This document shows, one piece after another, positions 1,434 through 45,274 of a DNA stretch of 45,274 bases. The position numbers and the translations under genes are program-made. Positions within the stretch are counted from its first letter, which is position 1. Each line of letters starts with the position of its first letter. The stretch spans positions 1-45,274 of the forward strand of contig NZ_JAKDLO010000011.1 of assembly GCF_030452765.1 (NCBI RefSeq), read 5' to 3'. The notes below the pieces were generated by a model. The model was not told where the DNA came from and did no database searches. It was given only the letters and a program-made list of their open reading frames with translations. Source of the DNA: Intrasporangium sp. (GTDB lineage: Bacteria > Actinomycetota > Actinomycetes > Actinomycetales > Dermatophilaceae).

Positions 1434-3941
1434 TCAGCAGCCCCGACCTGATGTGCGGAACGCGTCCCGCGACGCGAGAACCTCGCGCAGCTCGTGGTCG
1501 GCGTCGACGAGCGAGCGGCGCACCGCAGGGGTGAGGTCCTCGCGCCCCAACGTCGCGGCACTGAGTCGGGCCGTCCGCGCGGTGTGGACCTGGGGAAAGG
1601 CGAGGGTGACAACCTGGGCGACAGCGTCCTCACCCACCCACGCGGACATGGCCGGAACGTCGGCGAAGTACCGTGCGACATACGGCTCGACGAGCTCGTC
1701 GTCAGGCGCGGACCAGAAGCCCCTGGCAAGGTGGTTCATCTCGTAGTTCGACCGACCGTGTCGACCGGTGAGCTGCTCCCACGCCCACACCTTGGCCTGC
1801 GGGTCGGGGCGGCTCGCGCGGCACATGAGCGCGTTGAGCGATCCCTGCAGGGTGTCGTCCGTCTCGCGGAAGCGCTCGATGTCCCCGTCCGACAGAGCCC
1901 CCCGGCAGGCGAGCTTGCGCACGACGATCCACCTGAAGTCGCCGTCGTCCTCGAGCCCGGCCGGCAGGCCATGTCCGGTGGCCCATCCGCGCAGCAGGTC
2001 CTGGTCGTCACTCGTGCCCGCGACGAGCCGCGCGGCAGCCAGCGATGCCGTCGAGCCGGCCTCGGCGGACTCGAGCAGCGACACACCGACCGCGGCGAGC
2101 CTGCTGCGGGCCACCGCCCGCTCCCCCCGCGGGAGGAACACCCCGATGACGACCTGCTCGGCGTAGGCGGCCGCCCGGGTCTGGATCGACGAGTTCGGCT
2201 CACCGGCCCAGGCCGCTTCGAAGACGTCGAGAACCAGGGATGGTGGCATCGCGGCCGTGTGCACGCCGTCGACGAGCGCGGACCAGAGCACGGCGCGAGC
2301 CTGGGCGTCGGGAACCTGGCCGAGCTGGGCGGGCAGCGCGCTGATCGTCGCGTCCGACAGGACGACTCGCGCCCAGGTCAGGTCCGCCGCGTTCGGGACG
2401 AGCACCGCGGGCGCAGGTGTCCCGACGAGGCCGTCGAGCGATGTCTGCGCGGTGGTGATCGTCGCCATGACCCGGGCGGTCTGCTCGCCGTCGGTCCATC
2501 CCGCGACGTCGAGGGCGTGCGGCCGGTCGGCCGGGAACGCCATCGGTGCCTCGCGGGTCATCCTCGCCGCGACGACGCGGAGGTCCTGCACGCTCAGGTC
2601 GACGGCGATCGTGTCGCGGCCGGCGGTGAGCAGCCAGGCCTTGGCCCACGCATCGAGGTCCTTGCCACTACCGAGCTGGATCGCGGCGAGGAAGTCGGCG
2701 AGGGTGCCGTTGCCGTACGCGTTGACGGACAGGTACGACCGGACCCCGGCGATGAACCGGTCGTCGCCGGCGTAGGCGATCAGCTGCCGCAGTGCCGCGG
2801 CGCCCTTGGCGTAGGAGATGCCGTCGAAGTTCTGCAGCGCGCTCATTGCGTCGAGCGCCTCGACGCCGGCCACGGGGTGGGTCGACGGCGAGCGCTCGGC
2901 GCCATACCCCCACACCTTGCGCACGATCGACGAGTCGACCCACGCGTCCGTGTACTCCGTCGCGTCGACGAGGCAGCGGTGCGACATGTACTCGGCGAAC
3001 GACTCGTTGAGCCAGAGGTCGTCCCACCACTTCATCGTGACGAGGTCGCCGAACCACATATGGGACAGCTCGTGCGCGATGGTGTTGGCGCGGGTGAGCA
3101 GCTCGTCGCGCGTGGCCGCACCCCGGTAGATGTACTGGTCGCGCAGGACGACACAGCCCGGGTTCTCCATCGCGCCGGCGTTGAACTCCGGCACGAACAC
3201 CTGCTCGTAGGCGCCGAACGGGTAGCGGATGTCGAAGAGGCTGTGAAAGTAGTCGAACGACTGCCGCGTCACGGCGAAGATCTCGGTCGCGTGCCGCTCG
3301 AGCGGTTTCCTCAGCGACTGGCGGGAGTGAATGCCGAGAGGTATGCCGTCGTGCTCGTCTCGCACGGACGCCCAGGGCCCGGCGCAGACGGTCACGAAGT
3401 AGGTCGCGAGCGGCTTCGTCGTCGCGAGCACCCACTCCCCCGGCGCGGTCTCGGTGGCCGCGCCGTTGCCGATGACGGACCACTGTCGGGGCGTGCGCAC
3501 CGTGACGTCGTAAGGCGCCTTGAGGTCGGGCTGGTCGAAGCAGGCGAAGACGCGCGGGGCGGCAGCGAGGAAGAGGTGTCCGTAGACATAGTCCTGCCCG
3601 TCGGCAGGATCGGTGGCCCGGTGCAGCCCCTGCCCGTCGTGGCTGTAGCCCATGACGGCATCGACGACCACCTCGTTCTCGGCGGCGAGAGCCGGCAGGG
3701 GCAGCCGGCCGTCGACGACAGTGGCGGGGTCGAGGTCACGGCCGTTGAGGCGGATCGAGGCGACCTCGCGCGCCCTGAGGTCGACCCAGCTGTCGGCACC
3801 CGGCGTATCGCACGTGAAGTGGATCTTCGCGACCGAGCCGAAGACCTCGGAGCCGCGGTCGAGATCGAGGTGGACGGCATACGAGACGACGTCGATGAGC
3901 GCGGAGCGTTCGTGCGCCTCAGCCAAGGTCAGACTGCGCAT
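1434..3941 (-). CDS. pepN: aminopeptidase N, M1 zinc metallopeptidase
   Basis: An 835-residue cytosolic aminopeptidase that removes N-terminal residues from peptides. The exopeptidase motif GAMEN is at residues 256-260. The zinc site is H290-E291-L-S-H294 with the third ligand E313 in NESFAEY, the exact HExxH-18-E spacing of family M1. The N-terminal part is the usual beta-saddle domain, and the C-terminal 400 residues look like the helical ERAP1-like domain of actinobacterial PepN. The start at 3941 (MRSLTLAEAHERS) matches the common N-terminus of the family. An upstream in-frame ATG at 4031 would add 30 residues of unlikely sequence. No strong Shine-Dalgarno is visible. It lies 86 bases downstream of htpX on the same strand and may share its transcript, giving two proteases side by side. 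A long opposite-strand ORF over it is a codon shadow. Confidence 0.95.
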   Translation of the reverse strand: MRSLTLAEAHERSALIDVVSYAVHLDLDRGSEVFGSVAKIHFTCDTPGADSWVDLRAREVASIRLNGRDLDPATVVDGRLPLPALAAENEVVVDAVMGYSHDGQGLHRATDPADGQDYVYGHLFLAAAPRVFACFDQPDLKAPYDVTVRTPRQWSVIGNGAATETAPGEWVLATTKPLATYFVTVCAGPWASVRDEHDGIPLGIHSRQSLRKPLERHATEIFAVTRQSFDYFHSLFDIRYPFGAYEQVFVPEFNAGAMENPGCVVLRDQYIYRGAATRDELLTRANTIAHELSHMWFGDLVTMKWWDDLWLNESFAEYMSHRCLVDATEYTDAWVDSSIVRKVWGYGAERSPSTHPVAGVEALDAMSALQNFDGISYAKGAAALRQLIAYAGDDRFIAGVRSYLSVNAYGNGTLADFLAAIQLGSGKDLDAWAKAWLLTAGRDTIAVDLSVQDLRVVAARMTREAPMAFPADRPHALDVAGWTDGEQTARVMATITTAQTSLDGLVGTPAPAVLVPNAADLTWARVVLSDATISALPAQLGQVPDAQARAVLWSALVDGVHTAAMPPSLVLDVFEAAWAGEPNSSIQTRAAAYAEQVVIGVFLPRGERAVARSRLAAVGVSLLESAEAGSTASLAAARLVAGTSDDQDLLRGWATGHGLPAGLEDDGDFRWIVVRKLACRGALSDGDIERFRETDDTLQGSLNALMCRASRPDPQAKVWAWEQLTGRHGRSNYEMNHLARGFWSAPDDELVEPYVARYFADVPAMSAWVGEDAVAQVVTLAFPQVHTARTARLSAATLGREDLTPAVRRSLVDADHELREVLASRDAFRTSGRGC

Positions 3942-4942: not shown

Positions 4943-5068
4943 CATCGAGAGTGCAGGCCTTCGCATCGAGAGTGCAGGCCTTCGCATCGAGAGTGCACAT
5001 CCCGGCATCGAGAGTGCACTTCCCGGCATCGAGAGTGCAGATCTCGTGATCGAGCGTGCGCGTGTCGG
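4943..5068 (+). repeat. 21-bp tandem repeat array A (six units), upstream of htpX
   Basis: Units start at 4943, 4964, 4985, 5006, 5027 and 5048, exactly 21 bases apart. The first five share CATCGAGAGTGCA followed by a variable 8-base tail; the sixth is worn (ATCGAGCGTGC). The array fills most of the htpX 5' flank. The same core with small changes appears in array B just downstream of nuoN2 (inverted) and inside menD. Confidence 0.9.
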
Positions 5069-5121
5069 CCGTCCCCCCGAAAGTAGGGGTCAGCAGGCGT
5101 CGCCTCCGTGGGCTCAGTGCT

Positions 5122-5195
5122 GCACTGTCGATCCGGAGTACAGCACTGTCGATCCGGAGTGCTGCACTGTCGATCCGGAGTACTGCACTGTCGAT
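5122..5195 (-). repeat. 21-bp tandem repeat array B (four units), inverted relative to array A
   Basis: Plus-strand units begin at 5122, 5143, 5164 and 5185 with GCACTGTCGAT; the first three continue CCGGAGT. Read on the minus strand the core is ATCGACAGTGC, one base from the array A core. The period is again 21. The last unit ends one base before the nuoN2 stop codon. Arrays A and B point in opposite directions around a 53-base centre containing a weak CCCC/GGGG hairpin. No gene is seen in 4895-5196. Confidence 0.9.
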
Positions 5196-5196
5196 C

Positions 5197-6816
5197 TCAG
5201 GTGCCGAACAGACCGAGCAGGAGCTGCGGTTGGATGCTCACGGCGAGCAGGACGAGGACGCTCGCGACGAGCGCAACCGTGATCGCGAGCCGCCGGCCCG
5301 CCAGAACGGCACTGGGCCCGGCCTGGCCCGCGGCCGCTGGCTCCACCGGGGCGCTGCCCGTCTCGGCCTCGCTCGGGTTGAGCACCGGGCGCAGCCAACG
5401 CAGGTAGACCGCGACCCCGAGGACGGCGTTGCCGGCGGCGACGAGCGCGAGCCAGACCCACCCCTCGACGATGACCGGCCGGAACGCGACGATCTTGCCG
5501 ACGAGCCCGATGACCCCGGGCGGCAGCCCCGCCAGGGAGGTCAGGGCCAGGGCCAGCGCGCCGGCTCGCCACGGACTACGCAACCACAGGCCCGCGTATG
5601 CCGCCATCCCGCGTCCGCGCGCCCCGACCTCCTGCACGGTGCGGGCGACGACGGCGAACGCCACGAGGGTGGCGGCGACATACGTGAGCAGGTAGATGCC
5701 GGCGGACCGCTGCCCGAGCGCCGAGATGCTGACGAGCGGCAGGATGACCCAGCCGGCCTGGGCCACCGTCGACCAGGCGAGCAACCGCACCACGTCGTCC
5801 TGGCGCAGTGCCATGACGTTGCCGAGCGTCATCGTCACGGCGGAGAGGACCGCGACGGCGAGCAGGCCGGGAGTGCCGAGGCCGCTCAGCGCCTGGACGA
5901 GCACGAGCAGCGCAGCCAGCGCACCGATCTTCGAGACGGTGGCCAGGAAGGTCGCGACCGCGGGGGTTGACCCCGCGTAGGCCGTCGGTGTCCATGCGTG
6001 GAACGGCACGAGTGAGAGCTTGAACCCGAGCCCGGCCAGGACGAGCACGAGCGAGAGGGACAGCAGCGCGACGGAGGGCGCCGGCGCAGCGGCGGCGACG
6101 GTGCCGGCTGGGACCTGCCCGGCCGCGAGCGCCGCGTCGGGGCTGAAGAAGGGGGCGCCGGTCGCGAGGAACCAGAGCGCCGCCCCGACGGCGAGCAGGG
6201 CGAAGGAGACGAGCGAGGTGACGAGCAGCTGCATCGCCCCGGCGAGCGCCGCGCGGGTGCCGGTCAGCGCGACGAGGGCGATGACGGGCAGGGTCGCGAG
6301 CTCGAGGGCGACCAGCCAGGTGCCGATGTCGCGGCTCGCGGCCACGACGACGGTGCCGGTCAGGGCGGTGAGGAACAGGATCGCCTCGATGGGCTCCCGG
6401 GTGCTCTCCGCGGGGCGAGCCCGCGCCACGGGCCAGGCGAGCGCGAGGCACACCGCGGCGGCGAGCCCGGCTCCGAGCTGCAGGCTGCTGCCCAGCGCGC
6501 CGGCTCGCCACAGGCACTCCGACGCGGCCATGGCCGAGGTGTACGGCGACGCCTCCCCGGGCGTGTAGGAGAACGACCCTCCGCCCGGCGAGAACCAGCC
6601 CGCGCTCAGGCAGAACGTGGTGCGGACCGTACCGGCGCCGGCGGCGACGCCCGGGATGGCGGCACCAGCGGCACCGAGCGACGCGACGGCGGCGACGGCA
6701 TACGGCAGGCCTCTGAGCCGGGGCACGACGAGGTCCGCGACGAGCACGACGAGCACCCCTGCGAGAGGGATCAGCGCGGGCAGCAGGGTGACGACGTCGA
6801 TGGCGAGACCGGTCAT
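5197..6816 (-). CDS. nuoN: complex I-like subunit N, second copy (antiporter-like membrane subunit)
   Basis: A 539-residue, many-spanning protein of the Mrp-antiporter-like family. It is the last gene of the partial nuo operon. Pump residues look intact: the Glu in WLVALELATLP, the Lys pair in GLGFKLSLVPFHAW and TVSKIGALAALL, and the later Lys in GLVGKIVAF. An extra loop of about 40 residues after the second helix (around residues 65-105, GGGSFSYTPGEAS) is absent from the main operon's NuoN. The ATG overlaps the nuoM2 stop as ATGA. The C-terminus ends directly at the 21-bp repeat array. It should move protons in the membrane arm; the electron source of this complex is unknown. Confidence 0.93.
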   Translation of the reverse strand: MTGLAIDVVTLLPALIPLAGVLVVLVADLVVPRLRGLPYAVAAVASLGAAGAAIPGVAAGAGTVRTTFCLSAGWFSPGGGSFSYTPGEASPYTSAMAASECLWRAGALGSSLQLGAGLAAAVCLALAWPVARARPAESTREPIEAILFLTALTGTVVVAASRDIGTWLVALELATLPVIALVALTGTRAALAGAMQLLVTSLVSFALLAVGAALWFLATGAPFFSPDAALAAGQVPAGTVAAAAPAPSVALLSLSLVLVLAGLGFKLSLVPFHAWTPTAYAGSTPAVATFLATVSKIGALAALLVLVQALSGLGTPGLLAVAVLSAVTMTLGNVMALRQDDVVRLLAWSTVAQAGWVILPLVSISALGQRSAGIYLLTYVAATLVAFAVVARTVQEVGARGRGMAAYAGLWLRSPWRAGALALALTSLAGLPPGVIGLVGKIVAFRPVIVEGWVWLALVAAGNAVLGVAVYLRWLRPVLNPSEAETGSAPVEPAAAGQAGPSAVLAGRRLAITVALVASVLVLLAVSIQPQLLLGLFGT

Positions 6817-18597: not shown

Positions 18598-18627
18598 CGC
18601 GCTGCGGCTGCCTGGGTGCGTCCCGGC

Positions 18628-18678
18628 GCGCCGCCGTTCGGGACGCGCCGCCGTTCGGGACGCGCCGCCGTTCGGGAC
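18628..18678 (+). repeat. 17-bp tandem repeat, three units
   Basis: Units begin at 18628, 18645 and 18662 and read GCGCCGCCGTTCGGGAC, identical in all three. They lie 31 bases after the rarD stop. A degenerate GCCGTTCGGGG follows near 18692. The period is not a multiple of three and no gene spans it. Confidence 0.9.
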
Positions 18679-37227: not shown

Positions 37228-37381
37228 TTCGGGCGACGACGGTCGCTCCGGTCCTCGCTCGCTGGCGCTCGCTGCGATCCTCACTCCCTGTCGCCCTCAC
37301 GCCCTCTGTTCGGGCGACGACGGTCGCTCCGGTCCTCGCTCGCTGGCGCTCGCTGCGATCCTCACTCCCTGTCGCCCTCAC
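37228..37381. repeat. tandem 73-bp repeat (period 81) between nuoD and nuoE
   Basis: Copy 1 (37228-37300) and copy 2 (37309-37381) are identical by eye over 73 bases, from TTCGGGCGACGACGG to CTGTCGCCCTCAC, with an 8-base spacer. Each copy has a GC-rich core with repeated GCTCGCT words. Copy 2 contains the nuoD stop codon; copy 1 abuts the nuoE Shine-Dalgarno. It looks like an actinobacterial intergenic repeat that was duplicated in place. Confidence 0.92.
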
Positions 37382-44223: not shown

Positions 44224-45144
44224 ATGAGTGCCCGGCCGACGGCGGCCCGACTCGCCCGGGCCGTGCTCCATGCGCTGTGGCTCGGCGGGGTACGGGAGTT
44301 CGCGCTGTCCCCCGGCTCCCGCTCCGCTCCCCTCGCCATCGCCCTGTATGCCGCTGAGCGGGCCGGGGACGTGCGCCTGCACGTGCGCGTCGACGAGCGG
44401 TCCGCGGGATTCCTCGCGCTCGGCCTCGCAATCGGGTCCGGGGTTCCGGTGGCTGTGGTGACGACCTCTGGCACGGCCGTGGCCAACCTGCTGCCGGCCG
44501 TCATGGAGGCGCAGCACTCCGGCCGGCGGGTCATCGTGCTGAGCGCGGACCGTCCGGAGCGGCTGCGCGGCACCGGGGCGAACCAGACGACCCGGCAGGC
44601 GGGGATCTTCGGCTCCTTCGCCCCGTGTCACGACCTGGCCCAGGACGCGTCCGGCTCGGACGTCGCGCAGGCGGTCGCGGCTGCGGTGCGGGCGCCTGGA
44701 CCGACCCAGCTCAACCTGCAGTTCGACGGCGACCTGTTGCCGCCCAACGCCGAGCCCGACACGTGGTGGACCCGCCCCTCCTCCCCATCGAGTGTGCAGT
44801 CCTCCCGATCGAGTGTGCAGTTGTCCCGATCGAGTGTGCAGCTCTCCCGATCGAGTGTGCAGCTCTCCCGATCGAGTGTGCAGCTCTCCCAAGCCGAGCA
44901 TGATTCCCCCCGCCAAACGTCATACCCCATGGCCGGTGCCGAGCCCCTGACTGCTGGGCCACGCACCGTCGTCGTCGCCGGCGACGACGCCGGCCCGTCG
45001 GCACGCCTGCTGGCCGAGGCAGGCAACTGGCCGCTGCTGGCCGCGCCGACGTCCGGGGCCCGCCCCCGCCGGCCGGCACTGAGCCGCCGCTGTCGCAGAC
45101 GCCCGCGCAGATCCTCACCGGATCGGTGCTGCCGCCGGAGCTGA
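44224..45144 (+). CDS. menD: MenD (SEPHCHC synthase), N-terminal part, interrupted
   Basis: MenD joins isochorismate and 2-oxoglutarate using thiamine diphosphate. Residues 1-185 are the pyrimidine-binding domain ([64 protein letters not shown]). Residues about 185-225 are heptapeptides SSVQLSR encoded by 21-bp repeats, placed in the linker before the central domain. The central domain starts ([17 protein letters not shown]) but stops matching at TSGAR near base 45060; the last ~28 codons are Arg-rich nonsense up to a stop at 45144. About 306 of an expected ~550-600 residues remain, so no active MenD can be made from this copy as written. The neighbours menF and menG suggest the true gene continues elsewhere. 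Confidence 0.85.
44787..44890 (+). repeat. 21-bp tandem repeat array C (five units) inside menD
   Basis: Units start at 44787, 44808, 44829, 44850 and 44871 with ATCGAGTGTGCAG and a variable tail ending in CCCG or CCCC. The period, 21, is seven codons, so the reading frame is kept. The core differs by one or two bases from arrays A and B, about 39.5 kb away. Confidence 0.92.
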
Positions 45145-45274
45145 ACATCGGCCGCTGGTTCACAGAGTGGAACTTCGACCTGGCCTGGATCGTCTTCTGC
45201 GGATTCGCGCTCTTCTTCTACCTGGCCGGGGTGCGTCGGCTGCACCAGCGGGGCGACAAGTGGCCGATCTATCG
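45063..45274 (+). CDS. fragment of a CtaG-type cytochrome oxidase assembly / CopD-fused membrane protein
   Basis: A frame open from 45063 to the end reads [28 protein letters not shown], then a membrane helix ([14 protein letters not shown]) and [12 protein letters not shown]. This matches the start of the CtaG_caa3 domain, often fused behind a CopD domain in actinobacteria. Both ends are missing: it begins at the point where menD homology stops and runs off the window. It is in a different frame from menD. The fragment was probably brought here by a rearrangement or a faulty join. Confidence 0.6.

Follow-up and report, generated by a model that had tools for sequence, protein, structure and literature searches.

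A 21-base repeat inside menD of an Intrasporangium genome belongs to a large interspersed family found mostly behind genes

The menD gene of an Intrasporangium sp. carries, within its reading frame, a tandem repeat of 21 bases that also occurs between genes of the same contig. What kind of element is this, and how did it become part of a protein? We analyzed the whole stretch of 45,274 nucleotides (the window) together with the remainder of its own genome (G000, a draft of 4.6 Mb in 329 contigs) and with related genomes, among them Intrasporangium chromatireducens Q5-1 (G001), a member of the same genus, and G016, a complete genome of 4,024,382 bases related to both. The features of the window are as follows.

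4944..5060, plus strand: array A, intergenic, six units belonging to the family of array C (TRF, unit finder)
5121..5195, minus strand: array B, four units, beginning 2 bases past the stop codon of gene 5197-6816 (minus strand), converging with array A (unit finder)
44224..45060, plus strand: 5′ part of menD, comprising the N-terminal domain, the linker with the array and the start of the central domain (TIGR00173; alignment with menD of G001); the rest is on contig C168
44251..44598, plus strand: TPP_enzyme_N domain, residues 10-125, upstream of array C (Pfam PF02776, E 2.3e-18)
44787..44890, plus strand: array C, five 21-base units in frame, giving SSVQxSR heptapeptides in the MenD linker (TRF, unit finder, ORF translation)
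45061..45274, no strand given: contig tail, not a continuation of menD, which C168 and G001 continue differently; no family match

The array inside menD

The plus-strand ORF 44224..45144 reads array C in frame as (SSVQLSR)n. TRF reports a repeat of period 21 at 44781-44890 (5.2 copies, 94% matches), and the unit finder places five cores from 44787 onward, one every 21 bases, each unit consisting of the core ATCGAGTGTGCA and a 9-base spacer. The ORF product matches the menD model TIGR00173 with an E-value of 3.3e-65 over positions 2-255 of 435, a match that stays under the model's curated cut-off because menD is cut, and the array falls between the TPP_enzyme_N domain and the start of the MenD central domain. 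TRF, the translation and the profiles therefore agree with the preliminary description, which had reported in-frame SSVQLSR repeats in this linker and pointed out that 21 bases make seven codons. Elsewhere in the window, TRF lists an 81-base unit at 37228-37381 (1.9 perfect copies) and a 17-base unit at 18627-18678 (3.1 perfect copies).

In G000 the gene is split over two contigs, C86 (profile positions 2-255) and C168 (positions 244-434); the other menD-profile matches of this genome, among the matches listed, are much weaker. The last 214 bases of the window depart from menD at about 45061, and C168 aligns with the remaining menD of G001. The tail reads as part of another gene, its 64-residue peptide found no family match in profile searches against Pfam and TIGR, and it is probably a chimeric contig end of the assembly. 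Since menD continues on C168 and not in the tail, the stop at 45144 is not the true end of menD.

This chimeric look, the 329 contigs of the draft and the several contigs that end in arrays could be taken to mean that the repeat in menD is an assembly artefact or, failing that, a native linker that merely resembles the family. We consider this scarcely credible. Coding sequence of menD stands on both sides of the array within one contig and aligns to the menD of G001 (82% DNA identity on one side of the array, 77% on the other), and two separate assemblies agree on the site of the arrays in a CHAT protein and an ABC protein. Moreover, the MenD linker of G016 contains a single unit in the SSVQ frame, with a score reached by 0 of 2000 shuffles, and two further proteins of that genome, DnaX and an FHA protein (L331, L332), hold in-frame SSVQDVP and SSVQNVP repeats at intervals of 33 bases, except for a single interval of 45; as the G016 genome is complete, its in-frame copies are not an assembly artefact.

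Measured between two fixed motifs, the MenD linker of the window has 86 amino acids and is the longest of 32 genomes (31 loci from profile matches or fetched, plus the window), the other 31 having 44-82. Given that each unit adds seven codons, that linker length is variable, and that the linker of G001 lacks units and that of G016 has a single one, array C is most likely a tolerated passenger of menD, with no selection on the peptide repeat. The tolerance assumed in the preliminary description is thus plausible for linker length; the kept core and step described below suggest constraint too.

We also scored the G001 MenD linker as a possible remnant of this family and of a second one (see below); neither score was significant, being reached by 480 and 146 of 2000 shuffles, respectively. 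An eight-unit array on C168 (L075, 951-1131, minus strand) immediately follows the menD stop and is joined to the TGA with which the converging gene ends; G001 has an empty site there.

Size, anatomy and placement of the family

Array C belongs to a large, lineage-specific family of interspersed repeats whose unit has 21 bases and whose core is TCGA-NN-GTGC. A two-core pattern had 224+219 matches in G000, compared with 0+0 for the reversed pattern used as a control. From stretches fetched around the matches listed, we obtained at least 150 arrays in G000, together comprising at least 806 units, and 12 in G001, comprising 61, unit counts in drafts being uncertain and several G000 contigs stopping within arrays. 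The figure of 150 is a lower bound, because the chaining rule built no array at L103 despite two pattern matches there (its cores begin GTCGA); 34 of the 150 arrays come within 60 bases of the end of their fetched stretch.

Over the 162 arrays of both genomes, the step from unit to unit was exactly 21 in 700 of 705 cases. Steps of 42 and 63, which the unit finder also permitted, did not occur in these arrays, so decayed units between good ones must be rare. Neighbouring units differ in 0.1-0.9% of comparisons at core positions 2-5, 8 and 11, in 2% and 5% at positions 9 and 10, in 15% and 13.5% at the outer positions 1 and 12, in about 22% at the two bases inside the core and in 26% in the spacer, values to be read with the finder's bias to conserved cores, as it accepts a core with at most two mismatches in ten positions. 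The spacers come in 291 distinct forms; GTAG stands at positions 13-16 in some units only, and many have CTAC, CTTC or GCAA there. Ahead of the first core the DNA is rich in C, and none of 146 arrays has a T as the base just before the core.

Just 6 of 500 distinct two-unit strings were common to different arrays, which argues against recent copying between them. With an invariant core and spacers private to each array, local expansion is indicated instead, and the data fit arrays that grew locally from seeded units under core constraint. It follows that the "active spread" by copying put forward in the preliminary description is not supported as worded, as the arrays look locally grown; its statements that array C was not recently copied from A or B, and that a single family (arrays A, B and C) occupies intergenic sites as well as linkers or loops of proteins, are supported. 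The kept core and step suggest constraint, more than tolerance alone.

Arrays are found preferentially in sense orientation just after stop codons, and some stand in frame inside proteins. Relying on our own codon-score gene calls rather than a standard gene finder, we placed 142 of the 150 G000 arrays outside ORFs, 7 inside an ORF in sense orientation and 1 inside an ORF in antisense. Where both flanking genes were called, 29 arrays lie behind a sense gene and face a convergent one, 27 have both flanking genes in their own orientation, 25 have both in the opposite orientation and 12 are flanked by divergent genes; for 49 at least one side was uncalled. The 5′ neighbour is in sense orientation in 81 of 122 arrays (p 4e-4), and the strand of the 3′ neighbour shows no significant preference (sense in 47 of 112, p 0.11). 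Arrays beginning at most 40 bases behind a sense stop number 57, compared with 19 arrays whose far edge comes within 40 bases of the stop of an antisense gene (p 1.5e-5), and in 13 cases the stop TGA is fused to the array, its A being the first core base. Neighbouring arrays on opposite strands converge in 24 cases and diverge in 5.

Such convergent pairs can, according to folding predictions, form a long hairpin, and the pair A+B of the window folds with a z-score of −6.2. For 40 single arrays the mean z was −1.49 on the sense and −1.69 on the antisense strand, with 14 of 40 below −2 on each, and the consensus unit by itself gave −3.2 kcal/mol (z −0.63). The idea of the unit as a hairpin was therefore rejected: arrays fold only modestly better than shuffles, both strands behave alike, and strong folding is limited to inverted pairs. 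For the same reason a hairpin role fits the pairs only. We likewise rejected base pairing among unit positions, the strongest associations being between adjacent spacer positions, unlike base pairs. In the window and five loci, no known RNA family was matched at gathering score.

Inside proteins, at least six G000 arrays are read in sense and in frame with coding sequence on both sides, and one more is found at a contig end. Besides MenD, the G000 proteins concerned are listed here.

BluB-CobT fusion: in frame, SSVQQSR
NadB: in frame, DRECTTP
Double ABC ATPase: in frame, DRECTCP
XdhC-type protein: in frame, IESAANP
CHAT protein: in frame, SSVQQSP
MFS protein: DRECTTP array at the contig end, where the available sequence of the protein stops
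PIG-L protein: antisense array near the C-terminus

All three sense frames are used by these arrays. Frames open over the whole array were found in 148, 59 and 141 of 150 cases in sense and in 110, 146 and 112 of 150 in antisense, so that stop codons do not account for the sense excess of 7 to 1, the antisense frames being mostly open too. Compared with the solved structure 1chu, NadB aligns to about the array and resumes behind it, and the insert is absent from six related NadB sequences (about 40-46% identical) and from six CobT sequences. The ABC protein with the DREC array (L080, contig C267) has behind it a second, unrelated tandem peptide repeat (ARETTH, AQETTH).

Could the heptapeptides themselves have been selected, in MenD and elsewhere, as a flexible or binding linker? 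The repeated use of sense frame 1 (SSVQ), which is open in just 59 of 150 whole arrays, would speak for it, as this frame is read in MenD, CobT and CHAT of G000, in CHAT of G001, and in MenD, DnaX and the FHA protein of G016. Nevertheless, three frames and thus different peptides occur across proteins of unrelated function, MenD and XdhC of G001 do without the array, and the MenD linker varies in length anyway, so we regard this explanation as very unlikely.

Related genomes and their variants of the element

Among the 117 genomes searched (G000 included), the strict pattern was found in G000 and G001 only; a looser pattern occurred in 3 of 58 genomes, G016 having one match. Viral contigs gave 0 matches of the two-core pattern, and a viral origin was rejected on this ground. 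Among the 20 stretches listed from a scan of genome contigs, 10 belong to I. chromatireducens, 9 others have a single match each and one contig of a Microlunatus MAG has three. The latter (MAG 41_S55; L183, region 3488-3604) contains a seven-unit array of the G000 family, the MAG being assigned to another order. The single two-core matches in Rhizobium-group genomes (L165, L175, L181, L184) may be due to chance or to a common coding site. Literature searches on Intrasporangium tandem repeats and on 21-bp intergenic tandem repeats of actinobacteria retrieved nothing, and among the matches listed no title dealt with the G000 family; an excerpt of the I. calvum genome paper prints "0" for CRISPR repeats (PMC3035309).

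The preliminary description had proposed comparing the unit number of menD linkers between strains, and unit numbers were compared here with G001. The ABC protein has 8 units in G000 and 2-3 in G001, the CHAT protein 6 and 4 (both genomes being drafts), and the end of the PIG-L gene 8 units and 2 decayed ones. Sites occupied in G000 and without a unit in G001 are those in XdhC and MenD, the one behind menD, L087 and, as far as the G001 contig reaches, L079. This comparison covered 4306 of 5440 letters prepared, L083, L095 and L106 falling outside it; L093 (no match), L086 (matched on the right side only) and the A/B site of the window (right-hand gene elsewhere) were not counted as empty. At L098, G001 has one good and two decayed units, and at CobT its contig breaks off within a unit of the 21-base family, at the position corresponding to the G000 array.

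These differences in unit number, the many sites that are empty in G001, and the insertion in linkers, loops and gene ends would all be expected of a neutral or selfish minisatellite, that is, of useless units that spread and expand by slippage and recombination and persist where they do little harm, such as gene ends and loops. However, a neutral array should let its core drift, whereas here the core changes far less than the spacer between neighbours and the step stays at 21; the sense preference at stops is a further point against it. We consider this explanation rather unlikely.

At three sites, NadB and the intergenic loci L109 and L003, G001 has, where G000 has the 21-base family, a different repeat, TCGANRGGCCAC, in which the G001 contig also ends at NadB and L003. 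This second family, mostly with an 18-base step, had 11 pattern matches in G001 and 0 in G000. It also occurs in G001 as opposite-strand pairs (L291-L299, L187, L194, L197).

G016 has a related 21-base element, TCGAGTGTGCASTTCSTGCCG, which occurs singly, as inverted pairs and as tandem copies whose step is often 33 bases. Its core was counted 131 times in G016 against 5 for the reversed-pattern control, while seven other genomes had 13-37 with controls of 2-13; G000 has 754 strict core matches. In 20 stretches chosen for their matches, 40 of 50 runs lay outside called ORFs, and the 10 inside were 5 sense and 5 antisense. The 5′ neighbour within 40 bases was in sense in 16 cases and opposite in 3, and 13 pairs converged while 6 diverged. 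The step is thus 21 in G000, 18 in the second family of G001 and mostly 33 in G016. With periods of 18 and 33 occurring in relatives, 21 does not hold as a general rule, and helical phasing of the kind expected of DNA-binding operator arrays (iteron type) is weakened as a general reason for it.

The presence of different families at NadB and the two intergenic sites led us to consider a recognition system of Actinobacteria with species dialects, in which a putative factor would read TCGA-NN-(GTGCA or GGCCAC), each species would have its own dialect and spacing, and at a given gene end or protein loop the resident dialect would take the place of the element already there. We find it unlikely in this form.

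Known systems and the proposed explanation

By analogy, the closest known kind of element is the REP gene-end repeat. REP sequences of the GTAG and CGTC families are described, in the part of the source available, as occurring in many copies near gene 3′ ends, forming opposite-strand dimers, supplying stop codons and standing in some cases in frame in genes (PMC3733652). The G000 element resembles them in its position behind genes (57 against 19 near stops), its opposite-strand pairs (24 against 5), the shared TGA and the in-frame copies. Unlike a REP, which is a palindromic unit of 20-40 bases able to form a hairpin and has a GTAG or CGTC tag at one end, the G000 unit is not clearly palindromic (z −0.63), no tag is conserved in its spacers, and its copies stand head to tail at a fixed step of 21 bases. 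As the unit fails the two defining features, palindrome and tag, we describe the element as REP-like and not as a REP proper.

Rickettsia palindromic elements, in the same partial source, are repeats found in frame inside unrelated protein genes (PMC3733652), and the six G000 arrays inserted in frame, plus the one at a contig end, are similar in this respect; unlike those palindromic inserts, the G000 units are non-palindromic (z −1.25 for the fold of the menD array), tandem at 21 bases and mostly outside genes. With coding VNTRs the element shares unit numbers that differ between relatives at one site (ABC, PIG-L end, CHAT; drafts) and units of whole codons that cause no frameshift. A VNTR is usually private to one locus, whereas one core recurs here in about 150 arrays.

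The DNA uptake sequences of Neisseriaceae are, as far as the source text at hand goes, characterized by a short core that is conserved and comes in species dialects, by inverted pairs at terminators and close to gene ends, and by intragenic copies (PMC3630211). The G000 family likewise has a core conserved genome-wide, dialects (TCGANNGTGCA and TCGANRGGCCAC), inverted pairs (in G000 and in G016) and intragenic copies, and its core could by this analogy be a candidate uptake sequence with species dialects, kept by transformation and often placed as inverted pairs behind genes. Nonetheless, head-to-tail arrays of fixed step are not described for uptake sequences in that portion of the text, and the 754 and 131 strict matches are below the roughly 900 to 6000 copies quoted there (PMC3630211). 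The strand preference behind stops is another difference, and we judge an uptake-like system quite unlikely.

The explanation that we favor, with a probability of about 0.5, is an interspersed element that is REP-like at gene ends and grows locally, whose core is read by a putative trans-acting factor and whose copies in menD are passengers. Recognition by this factor, at the level of either DNA or RNA transcript, would be the reason why the core is kept; the preference for one strand and for gene ends suggests that the element acts in or on transcripts, as has been proposed for REP sequences. At gene ends the element may work in a REP-like manner, as a 3′-end mark or hairpin and, when paired, perhaps as a terminator. 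Units would be seeded at permissive sites, protein linkers included, and would then grow in whole 21-base steps by replication slippage or unequal recombination. Seven codons per step would keep the frame, and the copies in menD and other genes would be tolerated passengers. In favor of this explanation we counted the size of the family relative to its control, the exact steps of 21, the private arrays, the preference for stops and strand, the convergent pairs, the differences in unit number, and the trend in G016 together with its MenD unit. Against it we counted the modest folding of single arrays, the 25 arrays that run against genes, the 12 between divergent genes, the null result for the 3′ neighbour, the finder's bias to conserved cores, the variable core ends, the G016 copies in ORFs (5 sense, 5 antisense) and the periods of 18 and 33.

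The arrays are also a warning that short-read assemblies of these species may be interrupted, or have wrong unit numbers, where such repeats occur. The in-frame copies in MenD and at least five other proteins show how an intergenic repeat can become protein sequence. If the favored explanation is true, these would be gene-end repeats entering proteins, and three related genomes would present its different states, from the empty site through one unit and a few units to many, as well as a second dialect at the same place. This would offer a testable route from extragenic repeat to protein sequence, and it would be testable as well whether the strict core means that gene ends in these bacteria have a hidden reader.
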